A stretch of DNA of 25,832 bases, taken from positions 1-25,832 of IMG/VR virus record IMGVR_UViG_3300023281_000219, one strand, 5' to 3'. Below are positions 3,727 to 25,787 of the stretch, in pieces (the stretch's first letter is position 1; each line of letters opens with the position of its first letter). Below the pieces are notes generated by a model. That model was given only the letters and a program-made list of their open reading frames with translations. It ran no database searches and was not told the DNA's origin. The translations under genes and the position numbers were made by a program. This DNA comes from a virus.

Positions 3727-3821
3727 TACGTTTCCTTTGTAGTTTTATGTTGATCTCTAAAGCTTTCAGTATCCTCTGTAGACAAGGCATCATCTATAAC
3801 TATTACTTTTCTTTTATTCAT
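3726..3821 (-). CDS. 31-codon ORF, N-terminal remnant of a 2OG-oxygenase-like gene
   Basis: This small frame fills the space between the first oxygenase and the 199-aa tail gene exactly. Its ATG lies 8 nt inside the end of the oxygenase gene and its TAA overlaps the next ATG (TAATG). The peptide begins MNKRKVIVIDDALSTED. That resembles the first beta strand of prolyl-4-hydroxylase-like proteins (iiviDdfLs.e) and the start of its neighbour (MNKK..REIIIFDDLFP). No catalytic residues follow. I read it as a truncated third oxygenase that may now serve mainly for translational coupling; the AAAGGAAAC before its stop is the ribosome binding site for the 199-aa gene. It may still be translated. Confidence 0.5.
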   Translation of the reverse strand: MNKRKVIVIDDALSTEDTESFRDQHKTTKET

Positions 3822-4365
3822 TATTTTTTTCAAAAAACATTGCTAGACTAAACCTATAATGCGGAGCAGTAATACTTTGAGTTCTTAACGTGTGGGGTAT
3901 TTCTCCATCAAATAGTATTCCTCTGTTAGGTTTGTATACAGAAGCAAACTCTATTTCATCACATTTGTCATTATAGAATAGTGTTTCTCCTGCCCACTCA
4001 GGCTTCCAATCTAAGTTTAAGTAATAGATAAATGACCAATTATTTAAATGTGTGTGAGGAAAATTAGTTTGAGTAGGAACTGATGTGTTAATAGTAGCCC
4101 TAGTAAGTTGCTTCTCTTTAATAAATTCGCCCATAGGTGTCTTATAAATTTGGTCAAACAATTTAGACTCTTCTAACTCTTCTACCCCGAAGTCAGCCGT
4201 ATAATATTTATGTGTTAGCCTTTCTATTGCATCAGTGTCTTGAAATCCAAGACCATAATTTCTTTTGTTTGAAGCAAAATTATAAAGGTATTCATGAAAT
4301 GCTTTAGGAAATAAATCATCAAATATTATTATCTCCCTTCCTAAGCTATCTATTTTTTTATTCAT
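3814..4365 (-). CDS. 2OG-Fe(II) oxygenase-like protein, HxH variant
   Basis: A 183-residue protein with the double-stranded beta-helix signature of iron/2-oxoglutarate oxygenases: NFPHTHLNNWSFIYYLNLDW (about 101-120, His104 and His106), WAGETLFYND, then the distal IPH (His158) and Arg171 in RFSLAMFF, placed for 2OG binding. The usual HxD is HTH here. Phage members of the 2OG-FeII_Oxy_5 type carry HxHxN at this place, so the variant may be normal for this subgroup; otherwise the metal site is altered. Substrate is unknown. It starts 8 nt inside the end of the second oxygenase gene. Such genes are frequent in marine phages. Confidence 0.7.
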   Translation of the reverse strand: MNKKIDSLGREIIIFDDLFPKAFHEYLYNFASNKRNYGLGFQDTDAIERLTHKYYTADFGVEELEESKLFDQIYKTPMGEFIKEKQLTRATINTSVPTQTNFPHTHLNNWSFIYYLNLDWKPEWAGETLFYNDKCDEIEFASVYKPNRGILFDGEIPHTLRTQSITAPHYRFSLAMFFEKNNE

Positions 4366-4885
4366 TATTTATTGATACTCCTGCATAAACAAACCAACTA
4401 ACTAAGACCTCTCTTGGTGTAGATGAAGGTGATACATAATGTCCAAATCCTCCATAAGGGGGAAATATTACTACTTTACCCTCTTCTGTTTTAATCTTTT
4501 TGTTCTGTTGTGGAAAGATAGTTTCTCCATCATTTGTGCTTAGATGTATTATAACTGAAGCATATCTAAGTAACCCATTTATTACTTCACCATCAGCGTG
4601 ATGTAAGCACTGTTCACCTTCATTATATCTATGGTACTCATACCCACTATCTGCTGAATCAAACTGAGGTTTATACCTTAGTTGCACCAACTCTTGTTGT
4701 ATGCTTTCCATCAAGCTATGTATTTTATTGTCTAGTTCTTTTAGCTCAGGTGTATTGGTAATGTCAACAGTGTTCCCTTCTCTGTTGTAACTTCCTACCT
4801 TGTTTAATTCAATATGTTTTCTACTTTGATTCTTTATTTCTTGAATCAATCCTAAGTCTACATAGTTAGGAAACTCATATATCAT
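4358..4885 (-). CDS. 2OG-Fe(II) oxygenase, prolyl-4-hydroxylase-like
   Basis: This 175-residue protein has the full facial triad: YEYHRYNEGEQCLHHADGE gives HxD (His96, Asp98), and FGHYVSP gives the distal His149 followed nine residues later by Arg158 for the 2OG carboxylate. The strand ASVIIHLSTNDGETIFPQ (about 109-126) is the typical core YLN...GGET-like strand. The length is that of a minimal P4Hc domain. It probably hydroxylates a protein side chain or a small molecule; the target cannot be read from sequence. It overlaps the cupin gene by 4 nt (ATGA-type junction) and the next oxygenase by 8 nt, so the three are coupled. Confidence 0.75.
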   Translation of the reverse strand: MIYEFPNYVDLGLIQEIKNQSRKHIELNKVGSYNREGNTVDITNTPELKELDNKIHSLMESIQQELVQLRYKPQFDSADSGYEYHRYNEGEQCLHHADGEVINGLLRYASVIIHLSTNDGETIFPQQNKKIKTEEGKVVIFPPYGGFGHYVSPSSTPREVLVSWFVYAGVSINNE

Positions 4886-5336: not shown

Positions 5337-6149
5337 TTAATTAACTTTAACACTCCCTATTTCTTTCGTAGCAAACCACTTATTGATTATCCAAGCTGTT
5401 ACATCAAACTCGCCTTTTTTAATTGCTGCATCTATTTTCCAAGGTTCTGAATGATGATTGTGATGTAACCCATCTGGTATTCCTAACCATAGAACCCAAG
5501 TATAATTCCAAGTAGTATCATTAGAATCAAAGTTTCTATATCCTTTAGGTAGCAATGCAGTATGAGTGAAGTAATTAACAAAATACATATCTAATATATA
5601 GCCTATTCCTGGAGGAGCTAATACTAAAAATATTGCAATCTTCCAGTCAATAAGAAAACTTATTGCTATTAAACTATACCAAAAAACATAATACCATTTG
5701 GCAGTAAAAGCTACTGCTTTATCTTTATATAAATCAACAGTAGTAAGTTTCATTCCTAGTTCTTTTTTCCATTTTTCAGGGCACCCTAACATCCATGTTG
5801 CTCCATGCAACACACCATCTTTAGGTGAGTGTATATCAAGTTCTTGGTCAGAGTATTTGTGATGGTGTCTATGCACAGTCGCCCAACCAATAGGACTTCC
5901 CTGTGCTGCCATTGTCCCTAGAAAACACAACACCTTATGTTTAAAAGGCGTGGTTTTAAATTGGTGATGAGAAAAGTATCGGTGTAAGCTCATGCTCATG
6001 CCACCAATTACCCATACTCTAGAAATTAAAAATGATGCTAAAAGCCACCAACCATAACCATAAAATACAGCTAATCCTATAGCTGCAATAGCACCTAAGT
6101 GAACAAATGTCCATAAAATTCTAAGGTTTAAGACTGTAGACGAAGGCAT
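5337..6149 (-). CDS. Membrane fatty acid desaturase 1 (acyl-CoA/ACP delta-9 type)
   Basis: A 270-residue integral membrane di-iron desaturase. All three histidine boxes are present: HRYFSH (56-61), HRHHH (93-97) and HHNHH (229-233), with the spacing of the bacterial stearoyl-desaturase family. Two hydrophobic hairpins precede box 1 (about 15-52) and lie between boxes 2 and 3 (about 152-195). It would introduce a cis double bond into an acyl chain, using oxygen and electrons from host ferredoxin or a reductase. Its ATG lies 22 nt inside the end of the acyl carrier protein gene, so the two are translationally linked. That linkage suggests the substrate may be acyl-ACP rather than acyl-CoA, an inference only. 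Confidence 0.88.
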   Translation of the reverse strand: MPSSTVLNLRILWTFVHLGAIAAIGLAVFYGYGWWLLASFLISRVWVIGGMSMSLHRYFSHHQFKTTPFKHKVLCFLGTMAAQGSPIGWATVHRHHHKYSDQELDIHSPKDGVLHGATWMLGCPEKWKKELGMKLTTVDLYKDKAVAFTAKWYYVFWYSLIAISFLIDWKIAIFLVLAPPGIGYILDMYFVNYFTHTALLPKGYRNFDSNDTTWNYTWVLWLGIPDGLHHNHHSEPWKIDAAIKKGEFDVTAWIINKWFATKEIGSVKVN

Positions 6150-6358
6150 AAATCAATAATATCCTTAACTGTTTGTAAATCTCCAACACTATCATCTGGT
6201 ATAACGATACCTAACTCTTCCTCTATAAATACAACTATCTCTACTGTTGCTAAAGAGTCTAAGCCTAAGTCATGTATGTTTTTATTGATATCTATGTCTT
6301 TTACTGGGGTTTTAATTTCTGCGGATATTATATTTAATATCTGATTGTTTATACTCAT
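6128..6358 (-). CDS. acpP: Acyl carrier protein
   Basis: A 76-residue ACP of normal length. It has the phosphopantetheine attachment motif DLGLDSLATVEIV with Ser35, and acidic helix II (VEIVVFIEEELGI) which is the docking surface for fatty acid enzymes. It would be converted to the holo form by the host ACP synthase and carry acyl chains. The ribosome binding site AAAGG lies 6 nt before the ATG, and the ATG is 1 nt after the stop of desaturase 2. The gene lies precisely between two desaturases, so it is part of that cassette rather than a stray. A carrier for another specialised acyl pathway is the main alternative. The symbol follows the family and does not mean orthology with host acpP. Confidence 0.9.
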   Translation of the reverse strand: MSINNQILNIISAEIKTPVKDIDINKNIHDLGLDSLATVEIVVFIEEELGIVIPDDSVGDLQTVKDIIDLCLRLQS

Positions 6359-6359
6359 A

Positions 6360-7175
6360 CTAAACCTTTACAATTTTATCAAAAGACTTTGCAACAGCAT
6401 CACAGGGGACACCTATTAACTCTATAACTTTAGCAGAGTAATCAAACTCACTAGGCAATAATGCTAAGTTGTATAGCCTAGGATTACTATGATGAGTATT
6501 ATGATACCCCTCACCCCATAGAAGCCATGCAAAAAGTTGACTGTTATATGTAAAATCAGGTGAATCAAACAACCTGTAACCTTTGTAGGCCAACTTAGGT
6601 ATATGAGCTATCACAGTTATATAACTAATACCAAAAAATACATATAACATACTAACACAATAAAAATAAGCTGCTATCTTAATATCTATTAAAGCTAGTA
6701 ATCCAATCCATCCTAATACTATTTTATAGTAATGTCTGTGAAAAAACATATGGTCTTTGTCTGCAATTAAATCTTTTACTCGCATAGGATTTACTTGATA
6801 AGGAGCAAAGTAATAAAACCATATTTTTATTTTATTCCATAAAGAACCATTTGGTGGATGTGGGTCTTTATCTGTATCTGATGTGCCATGATGTAGCCTA
6901 TGCGTATCACACCAATATATTGTACTGCCCATACTTACTATAGTACCAAAGAATAATAACATGATTTTTATTATTCTATTTTTTGGTTTAAAAGACTGGT
7001 GAGCAGACATCTTGTGTAACGCCATACTAGAACCAAAGCCTGTAAGAAACCATCCCCAAAGTAAAGCTAATATTACTAAGGATGTGTTCCACCAAAAAAG
7101 TAGTGTTGCTATTGCTCCAATGTAAGCAAAAGCCTGTACTACTTTTATCTTAACATTATTACTTATATTAAATAT
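6360..7175 (-). CDS. Membrane fatty acid desaturase 2, no canonical start codon
   Basis: The frame contains all desaturase histidine boxes: HKMSAH, HRLHH and HNTHH. From the first ATG at 7025 the protein would be only 221 residues and would begin four residues before box 1, without the first transmembrane hairpin. The same frame stays open upstream to a stop at 7179-7181 and encodes the missing part (VQAFAYIGAIATLLFWW...LVILALLWGWFLTGFGSSMALHK), matching desaturase 1. No ATG, GTG or TTG occurs in it. The best start is ATA at 7175-7173, 7 nt after AGGGA, giving 271 residues against 270 for the paralogue. It would overlap the upstream gene by 8 nt. A sequencing error, a remote frameshift or a short inactive protein are alternatives. 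Confidence 0.75.
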   Translation of the reverse strand: MFNISNNVKIKVVQAFAYIGAIATLLFWWNTSLVILALLWGWFLTGFGSSMALHKMSAHQSFKPKNRIIKIMLLFFGTIVSMGSTIYWCDTHRLHHGTSDTDKDPHPPNGSLWNKIKIWFYYFAPYQVNPMRVKDLIADKDHMFFHRHYYKIVLGWIGLLALIDIKIAAYFYCVSMLYVFFGISYITVIAHIPKLAYKGYRLFDSPDFTYNSQLFAWLLWGEGYHNTHHSNPRLYNLALLPSEFDYSAKVIELIGVPCDAVAKSFDKIVKV

Positions 7176-13180: not shown

Positions 13181-13411
13181 TTATAGTATCTTCCATGCCT
13201 TATCTTTTATCTCGCCAGTCATTGCGATAGATTCAAGATTAGACATAATTTCGTTAATGGACCTTATGCGTTGGTATGCGTATTCTCTTAGCTCGGCTTC
13301 GTCATCACCTGAGTATTGGATCATCTGCAGCTGTGTGTCTTTCATTTCTTTCATGACTTCCTGGAACTCAGTGCTTCCCAGTATGTTTTGCATTGCTTCA
13401 GATAAAGTCAT
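13181..13411 (-). CDS. Small acidic helical protein after portal, 76 aa
   Basis: The 76-residue protein is almost all helix: LSEAMQNILGSTEFQEVMKEMKDTQLQMIQYSGDDEAELREYAYQRIRSINEIMSNLESIA in sequence pieces, with a short basic end. It overlaps the portal stop by one base (TAATG at 13411-13413). I recall unnamed proteins of this size and composition after the portal in related phages, but I cannot assign a role. Portal chaperone or assembly factor would be a guess from location. Confidence 0.55.
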   Translation of the reverse strand: MTLSEAMQNILGSTEFQEVMKEMKDTQLQMIQYSGDDEAELREYAYQRIRSINEIMSNLESIAMTGEIKDKAWKIL

Positions 13412-15570
13412 TACATTCCTCTTTGTGATATGTTGCTAATCTTATCTAAAGCATTGACTAACTCTTTAGTTTGGGTGGACCTGTTTTTGTCACTATCGTT
13501 TGAAGCTTTTTGTGCGAGTTCCATTTCTTTCATTGCCATCTCTTTTTCAAACTGCATTTGTTTTTGTTGCATTTCAAGCATTTCTTTTTGCACTCTCATT
13601 TCAAGAGTTTTTCTTTCAATCTCTACTTTGGCCATAGCAGTCTGTGCTTGTAATTCAGCTTTCTCTTTCTCTACCCTAGCAATAGCTTGAGCAGCTTGTA
13701 CGGTAGGATCTACTTGTGGCTGTTGAGAAGCTTGTTGTCCCATTTGTTGGGCCTGTTCCTCGGTAACTTCCATAAGGAACTGCGACTCATCTTTGAAGCC
13801 AGCCATGTTAACGAATCTGGCTAAGGTGTCTCGGTATTGCTTGAGGTTAACCAATGGATTGCCTAGGCCATAACCCTGGATGATTTGTTCTTGTTTGTCT
13901 AAGATCATTTGCATAGTAGCTAACTGCTCTTGCTTGCTACCAGTACCAAGACCTACGTTAACAGTGATGTTGTATTCAGTGTCCCATTCTCTAGGATCAA
14001 ACGGTACATACTTATTATTAACTCTGATGATTCTTTCTTTCTGTTGGTATTTACATACTAAATGTAATACCCCTTTAAATAATGATGCGACACCAGTGTC
14101 AGCAAAGATACGAGCTATGAGTTCTAACTTACCTCCAGCTTGGCTTGTCATGGCAGCTACGGCAGTTGCTGTTACGTTTTGTAGGATATCTGGATTAAGA
14201 CCTTGCTGAGCATCAGAAACGCCTGTTCGTTTTGCTTGAACACTGTCTAAGTATTCCAACATAGGGAATGACTGGTTAGCGTTGGATGTTACCTGCATAG
14301 GTACTAATGCATTTGGATTCTTAATTCTAATAACACCACCCGCTGTGGATGTCAGTAAGTCGTCCATATTGACCTGACCTTCTACTGCACCAACTCTATA
14401 GTTGTTGGTAAGGTATAGGTTATCCAACATCTGTCTTGTTATGGTTGATTTAATTAACTGGAGGTCCATAGTCCTGTCAGCTAATGACTGTCCAAAGAAC
14501 TTATGTGGGATCGGGATTGGACATACTGAATGGAATGGAACATAGTCGCATTCTTCTTCATGGAGTATCTCGTTGGAGGCGTAGCATACCCGTCTCATCT
14601 CAGCTATACCGTCACCATCTAAATCAGTCTTGATGTAGCACTCATAGTATTCAATTAGTTGCAGTGCAGGTTCTAATGATTGCATGTCAGTAGGAAGCTC
14701 ACCACGAGAGTATCGTGCAATCCTTTCTGGAGAGAAGTCCAGTGCATCACCAGTAGCTAGTGAGTAAACTATATCTTCGTCATAACCCATAGCAACCAAC
14801 TCGGACCGTGTCATCATCTTACGGTGTGCAGTAAACTCTGAGTCTGCTATTGTTCTAGCTCTCTTGGATATTAGGAACTCTTCAGGCGGTACGTTTTCAA
14901 TCTTAACCCTACCTTTATCTGCCGTTCTTGATAGCTTAACGTCATGAGTTCTAATAACAACAGGAGGCACTTCCATCATCATTGGCATACCCATCTCATC
15001 CATCATAGGTTGGCCAGTCATTGGATCTACAGCAGGTTGAGGCTCTTGCTCAACCGATGTTTCATTAGTCTTTTGTGATACGACTTCAACATCCTCATCG
15101 GATGCGACCATCGCTAGCTCGTCATCATCAAGGTCGTAATACTTTTCAACGGTTACGTCTTTAGAGTCATCCCAGTATGCTTTTACAACACCTACTTTTT
15201 GCATCAATGCATCTTTGAACCAGTCGTGCATGATCTCAAAGCCATTGTTGTCTTTATAGAATATATGATTAACGTAAGCGGTAGCTTGTTCTGCCTGCTC
15301 TTCTGTCCCTTCTTTAGTGGCCTCAAAGACCACGGCATCACCTGAAGATGTAAAAGTACGCATTATCTGAGGCATAGCACCATCAATTGCCTCTGCCACT
15401 TCTCCAGTAACTATCTGTGATCTTCCAGGGACCTCATTGCCGTAGTGCTCCCGCAAATAGTATTGAAGTGCTTCCTGGCGTTGGTCAGTTGTCTCTGTCT
15501 CTAGGTATCCTATAGAATCATTGATCTCATTCTCTAGGTACGACTTTAATTTGTTTTCATCTATTGCCAT
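13411..15570 (-). CDS. Portal protein, P22-like
   Basis: A 719-residue portal that forms the dodecameric DNA channel at one capsid vertex. Recognisable parts include YYLREHYGNEVPGRSQIVTGEVAEAIDGAMPQIMRTFTSSGDAVVF (about 31-77), YINHIFYKDN-like VNHIFYKDNNGF, ENVPPEEFLISKRARTIADSEFTAHR (about 225-250), PIPIPHKFFGQSLADRTMDLQLIKS, and a C-terminal barrel of Gln-, Lys- and Glu-rich coiled coil (about 620-690). The length fits P22-type portals. A Met/Pro-rich insertion (DPMTGQPMMDEMGMPMMMEVPP, in pieces) is typical of this portal subgroup. It starts one codon after the large terminase stop (TAAATG) in the normal terminase-portal-scaffold-capsid order. Confidence 0.9.
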   Translation of the reverse strand: MAIDENKLKSYLENEINDSIGYLETETTDQRQEALQYYLREHYGNEVPGRSQIVTGEVAEAIDGAMPQIMRTFTSSGDAVVFEATKEGTEEQAEQATAYVNHIFYKDNNGFEIMHDWFKDALMQKVGVVKAYWDDSKDVTVEKYYDLDDDELAMVASDEDVEVVSQKTNETSVEQEPQPAVDPMTGQPMMDEMGMPMMMEVPPVVIRTHDVKLSRTADKGRVKIENVPPEEFLISKRARTIADSEFTAHRKMMTRSELVAMGYDEDIVYSLATGDALDFSPERIARYSRGELPTDMQSLEPALQLIEYYECYIKTDLDGDGIAEMRRVCYASNEILHEEECDYVPFHSVCPIPIPHKFFGQSLADRTMDLQLIKSTITRQMLDNLYLTNNYRVGAVEGQVNMDDLLTSTAGGVIRIKNPNALVPMQVTSNANQSFPMLEYLDSVQAKRTGVSDAQQGLNPDILQNVTATAVAAMTSQAGGKLELIARIFADTGVASLFKGVLHLVCKYQQKERIIRVNNKYVPFDPREWDTEYNITVNVGLGTGSKQEQLATMQMILDKQEQIIQGYGLGNPLVNLKQYRDTLARFVNMAGFKDESQFLMEVTEEQAQQMGQQASQQPQVDPTVQAAQAIARVEKEKAELQAQTAMAKVEIERKTLEMRVQKEMLEMQQKQMQFEKEMAMKEMELAQKASNDSDKNRSTQTKELVNALDKISNISQRGM

Positions 15571-24535: not shown

Positions 24536-25258
24536 ATGAAACCAACTAATCAAGTCTTTAAGACCAATGATTATGATACCTTTAGTTACATCAAGGGTAA
24601 CCGTAGTATCAATAAGCTTAATTTAAAACGCATTACTAATTCTATGCGAGAAAATTATATTCCTGTGCCCATTATTGTTAATGAAAAAAATCAAATCATT
24701 GATGGCCAGCACAGATTTGAAGCAGCAAAATCTTTAAAAAAAGAAGTATATTGCATAAAGATTCCTAAGCTTGGATTAAAAGAAGTAACAACCTTAAACA
24801 CCAACACAGCAAACTGGAACAATGCTGCATGGTTAGAAAGTTATGTTGACTTGGGATTTGAGGCCTACGTTACGTTTAAAGAATTTCGTAAAAAAACTGG
24901 TTTTGGTTATAGTATTTGCAGTGCTTTATTGGCCAACCAAAGTCAAAGAACTGGAACTCTTAGCCGTGAATTTAAAGACGGAAAGCTTAAAATTAAAAGT
25001 TTAGCAACTGCGTATGCTAATGCTAAAAAATTAGACCAAATTGGTGAGTATTTTGAAAACTACAAGTCAGATTCTTTTTCTGGTTGTATGTTGCAATTAA
25101 TGCACCATGAGCAGTACGACCACGCAAGAATGTTACAAAAATTAAAATTACAAGCTCATACGTTACCAAAAAGTGCTAATGGTGATAGGTATAAAAGAGA
25201 CTTGATAGATATTTTTAATTATCATGTAGCAAAGAAAAACAAAGCAGCATTTTTTTAA
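24536..25258 (+). CDS. ParB/Srx-like domain protein, 240 aa
   Basis: The N-terminal region (about 15-85) has the ParB/sulfiredoxin-type core: DTFSYIKGNRSINKLNLKRITNSMRENYIPVPIIVNEKNQIIDGQHRFEAAKSL in pieces, with IDGQHRFEA being the signature G-x-H-R motif of ParB nuclease-like domains. The remainder is helical with no clear homologue (TFKEFRKKTGFGYSICSALLANQSQRTGTLSREFKDGKLKIK). Phage ParB-like proteins can be DNA-binding, CTPase or nuclease. AAAGGAG precedes the ATG, which lies 1 nt after the exonuclease stop. It lies between recombination genes, so a DNA-related role is likely. Confidence 0.7.
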   Translation: MKPTNQVFKTNDYDTFSYIKGNRSINKLNLKRITNSMRENYIPVPIIVNEKNQIIDGQHRFEAAKSLKKEVYCIKIPKLGLKEVTTLNTNTANWNNAAWLESYVDLGFEAYVTFKEFRKKTGFGYSICSALLANQSQRTGTLSREFKDGKLKIKSLATAYANAKKLDQIGEYFENYKSDSFSGCMLQLMHHEQYDHARMLQKLKLQAHTLPKSANGDRYKRDLIDIFNYHVAKKNKAAFF

Positions 25259-25271
25259 TAGGAGAAATAAC

Positions 25272-25568
25272 ATGGCAGTATTAGGCGTAAGTTTAAGAAT
25301 TGACGTAACAAAAATTGACAAAGAAAAGCTCTATAAAGGTGCTAAGGGTACTTACCTGGACGTAACTACTTTTATTGATACGGATACTCCAGACCAGTAT
25401 GGCAACAATGGTATGGTAACTCAGTCCACCACACAGGAAGAACGTGAGGCTGGCGTTAAGGGTGCTATCTTAGGTAACAATAAAGTGTTTATGAATAAAG
25501 GTGCTGAGAGATCAAGTGTACCTACAGCTGCACAAGATTTAGAACAGTTTGAGGATGTCCCTTTCTAG
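25272..25568 (+). CDS. Single-stranded DNA-binding-like protein, 98 aa
   Basis: The protein (LGVSLRIDVTKIDKEKLYKG, KGTYLDVTTFIDTDTPDQYGNNGMVTQSTTQEEREAGVKGAILGNNKVF) is beta-rich and ends with FEDVPF. This acidic tip resembles the DDDIPF tail by which SSB proteins recruit replication partners. I recall phage proteins with the same KIDK.K..KG.KG.YL...........D.YG.NG..TQ pattern annotated as ssDNA-binding. It is the last gene of the annealing-exonuclease operon, fitting such a function. No classical OB-fold alignment was done. Ribosome binding site AGGAGAAATAAC lies before the ATG. Confidence 0.65.
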   Translation: MAVLGVSLRIDVTKIDKEKLYKGAKGTYLDVTTFIDTDTPDQYGNNGMVTQSTTQEEREAGVKGAILGNNKVFMNKGAERSSVPTAAQDLEQFEDVPF

Positions 25569-25586: not shown

Positions 25587-25642
25587 CCCTCAAGTAGTAA
25601 TGCTTAGAATGGGTCTAGGTATTACTGTATGGATCTTGAGGG
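25587..25642. other. Long 56-nt structured hairpin between ssb-like gene and pqqA
   Basis: A basal stem CCCTCAAG/CTTGAGGG (25587-25594 with 25635-25642), then an asymmetric bulge (T against GTATGGAT), then a continuous 13-bp stem AGTAATGC+TTAGA with TCTAG+GTATTACT (25596-25608 with 25614-25626) and a 5-nt loop. No T-tract follows on either strand. It lies between convergent genes and might be a bidirectional terminator or a structured RNA. Confidence 0.6.
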
Positions 25643-25677: not shown

Positions 25678-25749
25678 TTACTTGTTCATTACATACATTG
25701 TAACTTCAAAGCCGAAACGCATTTCAGTAGCTGATGGTTTTGTCCACAT
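25678..25749 (-). CDS. pqqA: PqqA, precursor peptide of pyrroloquinoline quinone
   Basis: A complete 23-codon gene for a peptide beginning MWTKPSATEM and continuing RFGFEVTMYVMNK. This is the typical PqqA sequence: W-x-K-P near the start and the essential E-V-T-x-Y (Glu15, Tyr19). In bacteria PqqE, with the chaperone PqqD, joins Glu and Tyr of PqqA as the first step in making PQQ, the cofactor of methanol, alcohol and glucose dehydrogenases. AAGGA lies 8 nt before the ATG. No pqqB-E genes are in the window, so processing would depend on the host. The pattern is of the beta/gamma-proteobacterial type. The gene stands alone on the minus strand, convergent to the recombination operon, with its own TATAAT. 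Confidence 0.92.
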   Translation of the reverse strand: MWTKPSATEMRFGFEVTMYVMNK

Positions 25750-25781
25750 AGTAGTAGTCCTTATTGGTTAATCAAGGCTCT

Positions 25782-25787
25782 ATTATA
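25782..25787 (-). promoter_or_regulatory. TATAAT -10 element of pqqA
   Basis: A perfect TATAAT on the minus strand, with a predicted start about 25 nt before the pqqA ATG. No good -35 is found at 16-18 nt (TCAGTA at 17 nt), so it may be weak or need an activator. Confidence 0.5.

Follow-up and report, generated by a model that had tools for sequence, protein, structure and literature searches.

A stand-alone pqqA gene of 23 codons in a phage record and in phages of Methylophilaceae

Identity and position of the pqqA gene

The window, i.e., the whole stretch of DNA that was analysed (25,832 nucleotides), is a 25.8-kb IMG/VR record that is classed as linear and is therefore probably a fragment. 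On its minus strand, at positions 25678-25749, it carries a gene of 23 codons for the PQQ precursor peptide PqqA; the open reading frame (25749-25678) is translated as MWTKPSATEMRFGFEVTMYVMNK and then ends in a stop codon. A sequence-only reading of the window had given exactly this position, with no strand, and had recognised the hallmarks of PqqA in the short frame, which the family tests bear out. The peptide scored 43.3 bits against PF08042 (cut-off 21.1), with model positions 1-19 of 19 aligned, and 40.0 bits against TIGR02107, the NCBIfam PqqA equivalog (cut-off 20). As both curated models are exceeded by ~20 bits, the frame is a genuine member of the PqqA family, an assignment to which the identical peptide of phage Venkman and the synonymous-only changes among its copies (see below) also contribute. 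The match to PF08042 is the single one in the whole record (E 8.5e-12); 14 control genomes contained none, and 100 Markov-simulated windows of the same composition yielded no motif matches or comparable peptides. The predicted cross-linked pair, Glu15 and Tyr19, has the four-residue spacing of PqqA. The gene is monocistronic, and pqqBCDE are not adjacent to it.

Flanking elements of pqqA

Reading the strand directly, a Shine-Dalgarno sequence, AAGGA (25758-25762, minus strand), lies 8 nt 5' of the ATG, and a putative -10 box, TATAAT (25782-25787, minus strand), lies ~33 nt 5' of it. A ribosome binding site-like string occurs within 20 nt 5' of the ATG in 121 of the 127 viral pqqA copies among the matches listed, and the TATAAT is retained in seven of eight close relatives, the window counted among them. 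Both elements had been named in the sequence-only reading and are present; a sigma-70 two-hexamer scan upstream of the window gene found no acceptable -35 hexamer, so that the putative promoter consists of the -10 box alone.

Among the matches listed, TATAAT was found upstream of viral pqqA in 40 of 120 distinct sequences, against 17.7 expected and a maximum of 28 in 500 simulations of these regions, while the upstream regions of host pqqA contained it in 1/127 cases against 9.0 expected, i.e., it was depleted there; the sequences are related to one another, and the test is hence indicative. This distribution suggests that strong promoters of the ordinary type, independent of host control, may drive the viral pqqA copies. 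As a separate observation, the scarcity of TATAAT upstream of pqqA in the Methylophilaceae hosts (loci L139-L258) hints at non-standard regulation.

Between the -10 box and the Shine-Dalgarno sequence lies a lineage-conserved leader element, TTGATTAAC (25767-25775, minus strand), which is common to the window, its close relatives, Venkman and MEP301 and occurs in 10/127 viral upstream regions among the matches listed vs 1/127 host ones. Another string, CAATGATCTGGTTTATG, was considered as a shared host-type upstream motif, which would mean borrowed host regulation, and was set aside: a few host copies of the OM43 type and a single viral copy contain it, which was insufficient. On the 3' side of pqqA, between the convergent genes, there is a stem-loop with the arms CCCTCAAG and CTTGAGGG (25587-25642, minus strand), whose fold in the window has a z of -2.8; the arms are kept in eight relatives, and the loop varies in length. 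A terminator scan of the window 3' of pqqA found nothing, and the stem-loop has no U-tract; it is a possible terminator or processing site.

Phage context and most likely host

The genes next to pqqA are those of a phage. Its convergent neighbour (25272-25568, plus strand) encodes a 98-aa phage protein (phrog_24909, E 2e-10) that is also present in the related contig L122, and beyond it lies the gene of a ParB-like protein (24536-25258, plus strand; phrog_12305) that is 96% identical in L122, itself a pqqA carrier. Strong PHROG matches in the window include the portal, the large terminase, the major head protein and other virion genes. The portal protein (13411-15570, minus strand; phrog_1216, E 3e-156) identifies the record as phage, close to Venkman: of the portals in 50,697 phage records, the nearest were those of OM43 phage Venkman EXVC282S (69.5% identity) and uncultured ctXG6705 (60.8%), and identity to Pelagibacter phage HTVC106P was 40.6%. 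Both nearest portal relatives carry pqqA; HTVC106P was not among the pqqA matches when the phage collection was searched with the peptide by tblastn. Thus, the window pqqA is a host-type metabolic gene within a genuine phage genome, as auxiliary genes are.

In Venkman, the open reading frame is unannotated, and its PqqA is identical to that of the window. The two phages also share the TTGATTAAC leader; they differ in that the Venkman leader lacks TATAAT and has TTAAAATAA and in that the flanking DNA has diverged. Because the portal is nearest to that of Venkman and the PqqA peptides are identical, the host of the window phage is most likely an OM43-type methylotroph, of the marine OM43 clade of Methylophilaceae, judging from these comparisons, and the link to PQQ-using methylotrophs that had been proposed from the letters of the window gains support from the nearest portal.

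Distribution of pqqA among phages

These data raise a key question: is pqqA a peculiarity of the window and its nearest relatives, or is it carried by phages of methylotrophs more widely? A tblastn search of the phage collection with the peptide returned 12 matching records, nine of which are phages of Methylophilales/Methylophilaceae, namely Venkman, P19250A, MEP301, MEP401, MEP402 and four Melnitz strains. HIM624-A (a partial genome that covers just the structural module), MEP431-434, Venkman EXVC038S and further named phages of Methylophilales were not among the matches and may not be part of the collection. The nine isolate records span at least four lineages (Venkman, P19250A, MEP301, MEP401/402, Melnitz), the carriers include both siphovirus-size and T4-like genomes, and the Pfam profile was positive in 7/7 phage records searched. 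In the six records inspected, the gene is either unannotated (Venkman, P19250A, MEP301, MEP402 and MEP401) or covered by a spurious annotated antisense ORF (Melnitz). The remaining records were ctXG6705 and two labelled Acinetobacter phage MD-2021a; the latter two were discounted, as the one inspected (CAKLQF020000010.1) holds a complete bacterial pqq operon. With ppk and the whole of pqqABCDE, it resembles a bacterial chromosome filed as phage.

Additional carriers in IMG/VR were sought by a degenerate DNA pattern for GFEVTMY and via neighbouring proteins. The pattern was found in at least 120 contigs, with an in-frame PqqA ORF in every contig listed, and by shared proteins the carriers listed form ~21 groups, a rough figure as many contigs are short. 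Contigs with a less typical PqqA include portal-, terminase- or DNA-polymerase-bearing ones. Five of the loci (L004, L013, L018, L024 and L028) have a PqqA core of the IRLGFEVTMYFKN or LRLGFEVTMYFK type, unlike that of Methylophilaceae, and are probably from phages of other PQQ-making bacteria, as their cores would suggest; L024 and L028 carry phage structural genes.

To avoid selecting on pqqA itself, relatives were also chosen by the portal only, and the 14 longest were taken. Nine of these possess pqqA, including 5/5 at ≥25 kb; the five in which none was found are each shorter than 25 kb and probably incomplete. Thus, the gene is conserved in related phages, a point on which the sequence-only reading had made its proposal depend.

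Selection on viral pqqA

Another important question is whether the viral copies are maintained as coding genes. The exact peptide of the window is found in eight copies (the window, L012, L050, L055, L058, L063, L122 and Venkman), which vary at five codons, and every change is synonymous. For the 108 distinct 23-codon viral genes among the matches listed, pN/pS was 0.17, or 0.25 with the seven search-motif codons masked, and Trp2, Pro5 and Arg11, all at positions outside the search motif, are invariant in 108/108 of the viral genes listed. When 5 kb of Venkman and ctXG6705 were compared, the sole megablast match was the 85-bp pqqA. The synonymous-only changes, the low pN/pS, the constancy of the three residues and the lone megablast match argue for a coding function and not for hitch-hiking, and this sequence pattern indicates that pqqA, like an auxiliary gene, is maintained by selection in phages.

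Absence of other pqq genes and a carrier with a PQQ dehydrogenase

Searches for the rest of the pathway were made in the pqqA-bearing phage records. Neither PqqE (TIGR02109) nor PqqC (TIGR02111) was found in 51 such records, the window and the isolates included, where the profiles gave one weak generic radical-SAM match; PqqD was absent from 34 pqqA-bearing phage records, and tblastn with host PqqB (partial query), PqqC, PqqD and PqqE found none of them in the viral loci. The host controls of these searches were positive. The phage gene is thus not accompanied by other pqq genes in its own genome, the window itself being a fragment, and its position outside a pqq operon, as had been read from the window, is confirmed in the phage records tested.

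A PQQ dehydrogenase was detected in one of the 51 pqqA-bearing records, the 72-kb contig G019 (IMG/VR 3300025120_009955). Within 9 kb (locus L269, G019:33500-42500), this contig encodes a methanol-dehydrogenase-family protein, FdhA (formate dehydrogenase alpha subunit), pqqA and a quinoprotein-associated SoxYZ-like carrier. The dehydrogenase, at 6 kb from pqqA, bears a DYD motif (read from the sequence), which we take to be typical of lanthanide-type XoxF, and ribonucleotide reductase, GroEL and an endonuclease with phage-family matches are encoded on the same contig. The gene set has the appearance of a methanol-oxidation cassette on a phage-like contig. In an OM43 host, a tandem pqqA pair adjoins the same SoxYZ-like carrier family, and the two arrangements together link phage pqqA with PQQ enzymes. 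For the window phage, a connection with XoxF may be presumed from this contig, the only related one that pairs pqqA with an XoxF-like gene.

pqqA in Methylophilaceae genomes

The PQQ pathway is present in the relatives of the presumed host, and pqqA was found in 149/150 Methylophilaceae genomes, in 1-12 copies per genome. Six host genomes that were inspected contain at most one strong pqqE each, and in OM43 strain LSUCC0665 each of three pqqA copies is >100 kb from pqqE. Several pqqA copies beside a single pqqBCDE are documented (PMC4109929). A stand-alone, multi-copy pqqA is therefore already the host's own arrangement, a point absent from the sequence-only reading, and since hosts multiply pqqA, the phage copy continues a host habit of adding the consumable component.

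The window PqqA resembles that of Methylophilaceae hosts in length, in the WTxP start, in the ATEMRFGFEVTMY core and in the C-terminal MNK, and the pair of peptides most frequent in the phages is also the most frequent pair in the hosts. As in the phage, stand-alone pqqA distant from pqqE occurs in the hosts. The differences are that the window copy is in a phage, amid phage neighbours, that the TATAAT boxes of viral copies are missing in host copies, and that the window peptide is a Ser6 variant whose combination of Ser6 and Lys4 was not among the sampled host peptides.

Possible role in infection and alternative explanations

In coastal seas, OM43 and similar methylotrophs are abundant, and their energy supply depends on PQQ enzymes. 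PqqA is consumed, one molecule per PQQ, and PqqB-E are catalysts. We consider it likely that, in infected cells, phage pqqA supplies the consumable substrate of host PQQ synthesis and thereby serves methanol dehydrogenase. The phage gene would be a functional monocistronic copy, transcribed from its own promoter in infection and translated to PqqA; host PqqD/PqqE would cross-link Glu15 and Tyr19, and a protease, PqqB and PqqC would complete PQQ. In a cell in which the phage halts host transcription, PqqA would be depleted first, and because only PqqA is consumed, the peptide alone would be the cheapest route to steady PQQ after the host has been shut down or outcompeted. Methanol dehydrogenase (XoxF/MxaF) would thus continue to receive PQQ and would provide energy and carbon for virions. 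Several points stand against this supply: the client dehydrogenase is phage-encoded in only one of 51 carriers, so that a need for extra PQQ is presumed; hosts have several pqqA copies, to which one more would add little dosage unless the host copies fall silent; enzyme-bound PQQ lasts long, and a benefit within one lytic cycle is hence not obvious; and the window has no -35 hexamer and five of the 14 portal-chosen relatives (each <25 kb and probably incomplete) showed no pqqA.

Could the phage peptide replace what infection removes instead of adding to it? Phage PqqA may offset host shut-off or the degradation of short host pqqA messages, with PQQ not rising above the uninfected level. The enrichment of TATAAT in viral copies (among the matches listed) and its near absence from host ones is as for a gene uncoupled from host regulation, and the several host copies also favour replacement, which is, however, a variant of the supply explanation; we regard it as a real possibility, short of probable. 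A very improbable alternative is that the peptide is a decoy or inhibitor: by occupying PqqD/PqqE it would lower PQQ, for example to slow the host or to alter a PQQ-sensitive surface receptor. Small inhibitory peptides are frequent in phages, and PQQ acts on adsorption of E. coli phages via PqqU (PMC12124388), which is not a Methylophilaceae system. However, in a decoy the reactive residues would be expected to be lost or changed, yet both residues of the cross-link, and the entire recognition region with them, are intact and as in host PqqA, the commonest viral and host peptides coincide, and one contig (G019) pairs pqqA with a PQQ dehydrogenase. Even less credible is a neutral passenger picked up by recombination from the host, with no role in infection: the many dispersed host copies would make capture easy, but the gene is under purifying selection, is kept in at least four isolated lineages of both siphovirus-size and T4-like phages, and is retained where the flanking DNA has wholly diverged. 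Host contamination or a chimeric join can be rejected as having next to no probability, although pqqA is 83 bp from the contig end and the MD-2021a matches, which include a chromosomal pqq operon, are a precedent, as isolated phages carry pqqA and the same gene lies in the same setting inside the independent contigs L012, L122 and L063.

Returning to the supply of the substrate, we lean, with moderate confidence, towards a broader view, in which stand-alone pqqA is near-universal in Methylophilaceae phages, has been kept or gained by unrelated lineages and was missed at 23 codons. Such phages would control a host cofactor pathway via its consumable peptide substrate alone, using phage-type promoters freed from host regulation.

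How does this compare with what is known? The remark, in the sequence-only reading, that pqqA had been discussed in phages of methylotrophs was correct: Coutinho et al. 2020 described PqqA, which they classed as an auxiliary metabolic gene, together with methanol dehydrogenase in the phage population VP_266 of Lake Baikal (PMC7678222). Like the window, VP_266 has pqqA in a phage predicted to infect Methylophilaceae (PMC7678222); it is T4-like and encodes methanol dehydrogenase, whereas the phage of the window is small, of the portal/terminase type, and has no client enzyme. The same authors stated that the isolate P19250A encodes none of their AMGs (PMC7678222), contrary to which its sequence contains an unannotated pqqA. 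Viral pqqA, pqqE and pqqD are listed in a 2026 reservoir study, and phage pqqA is unmentioned in the papers on MEP301, on MEP401/402 and on Venkman/Melnitz. Stand-alone pqqA across phage lineages appears to be unreported within the open-licence literature searched, and an earlier mention elsewhere is possible.

As an auxiliary gene, pqqA is of a known sort, and the interest lies in its unnoticed carriage by isolated methylotroph phages. Cyanophage psbA is a single-subunit auxiliary metabolic gene by which the phage supplies a host component that is quickly consumed or turned over. Phage pqqA resembles genes of the psbA type in that only the fast-consumed or fast-turned-over component is supplied; it differs in encoding the substrate peptide of a cofactor pathway, whereas psbA encodes a protein subunit. 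If phages of methylotrophs generally carry the PQQ substrate peptide, infection would be tied directly to methanol oxidation, and the 23-codon gene would be a sequence marker for such phages in metagenomes. Even in well-studied isolates, metabolic genes of very small size are hidden by gene callers. As pairs of host and phage have been isolated, the idea is testable at once.

Additional genes of the window

Two other gene groups of the window attracted attention. At positions 5337-7025 (minus strand), an acyl-carrier protein is flanked by two fatty-acid desaturases, a possible lipid-modifying cassette; the sole match of the first desaturase in the phage collection was Pelagibacter phage Mosig (28.8%). 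At positions 3814-4885 (minus strand), there are two neighbouring 2OG-Fe(II) oxygenase-like proteins, with weak Pfam scores.
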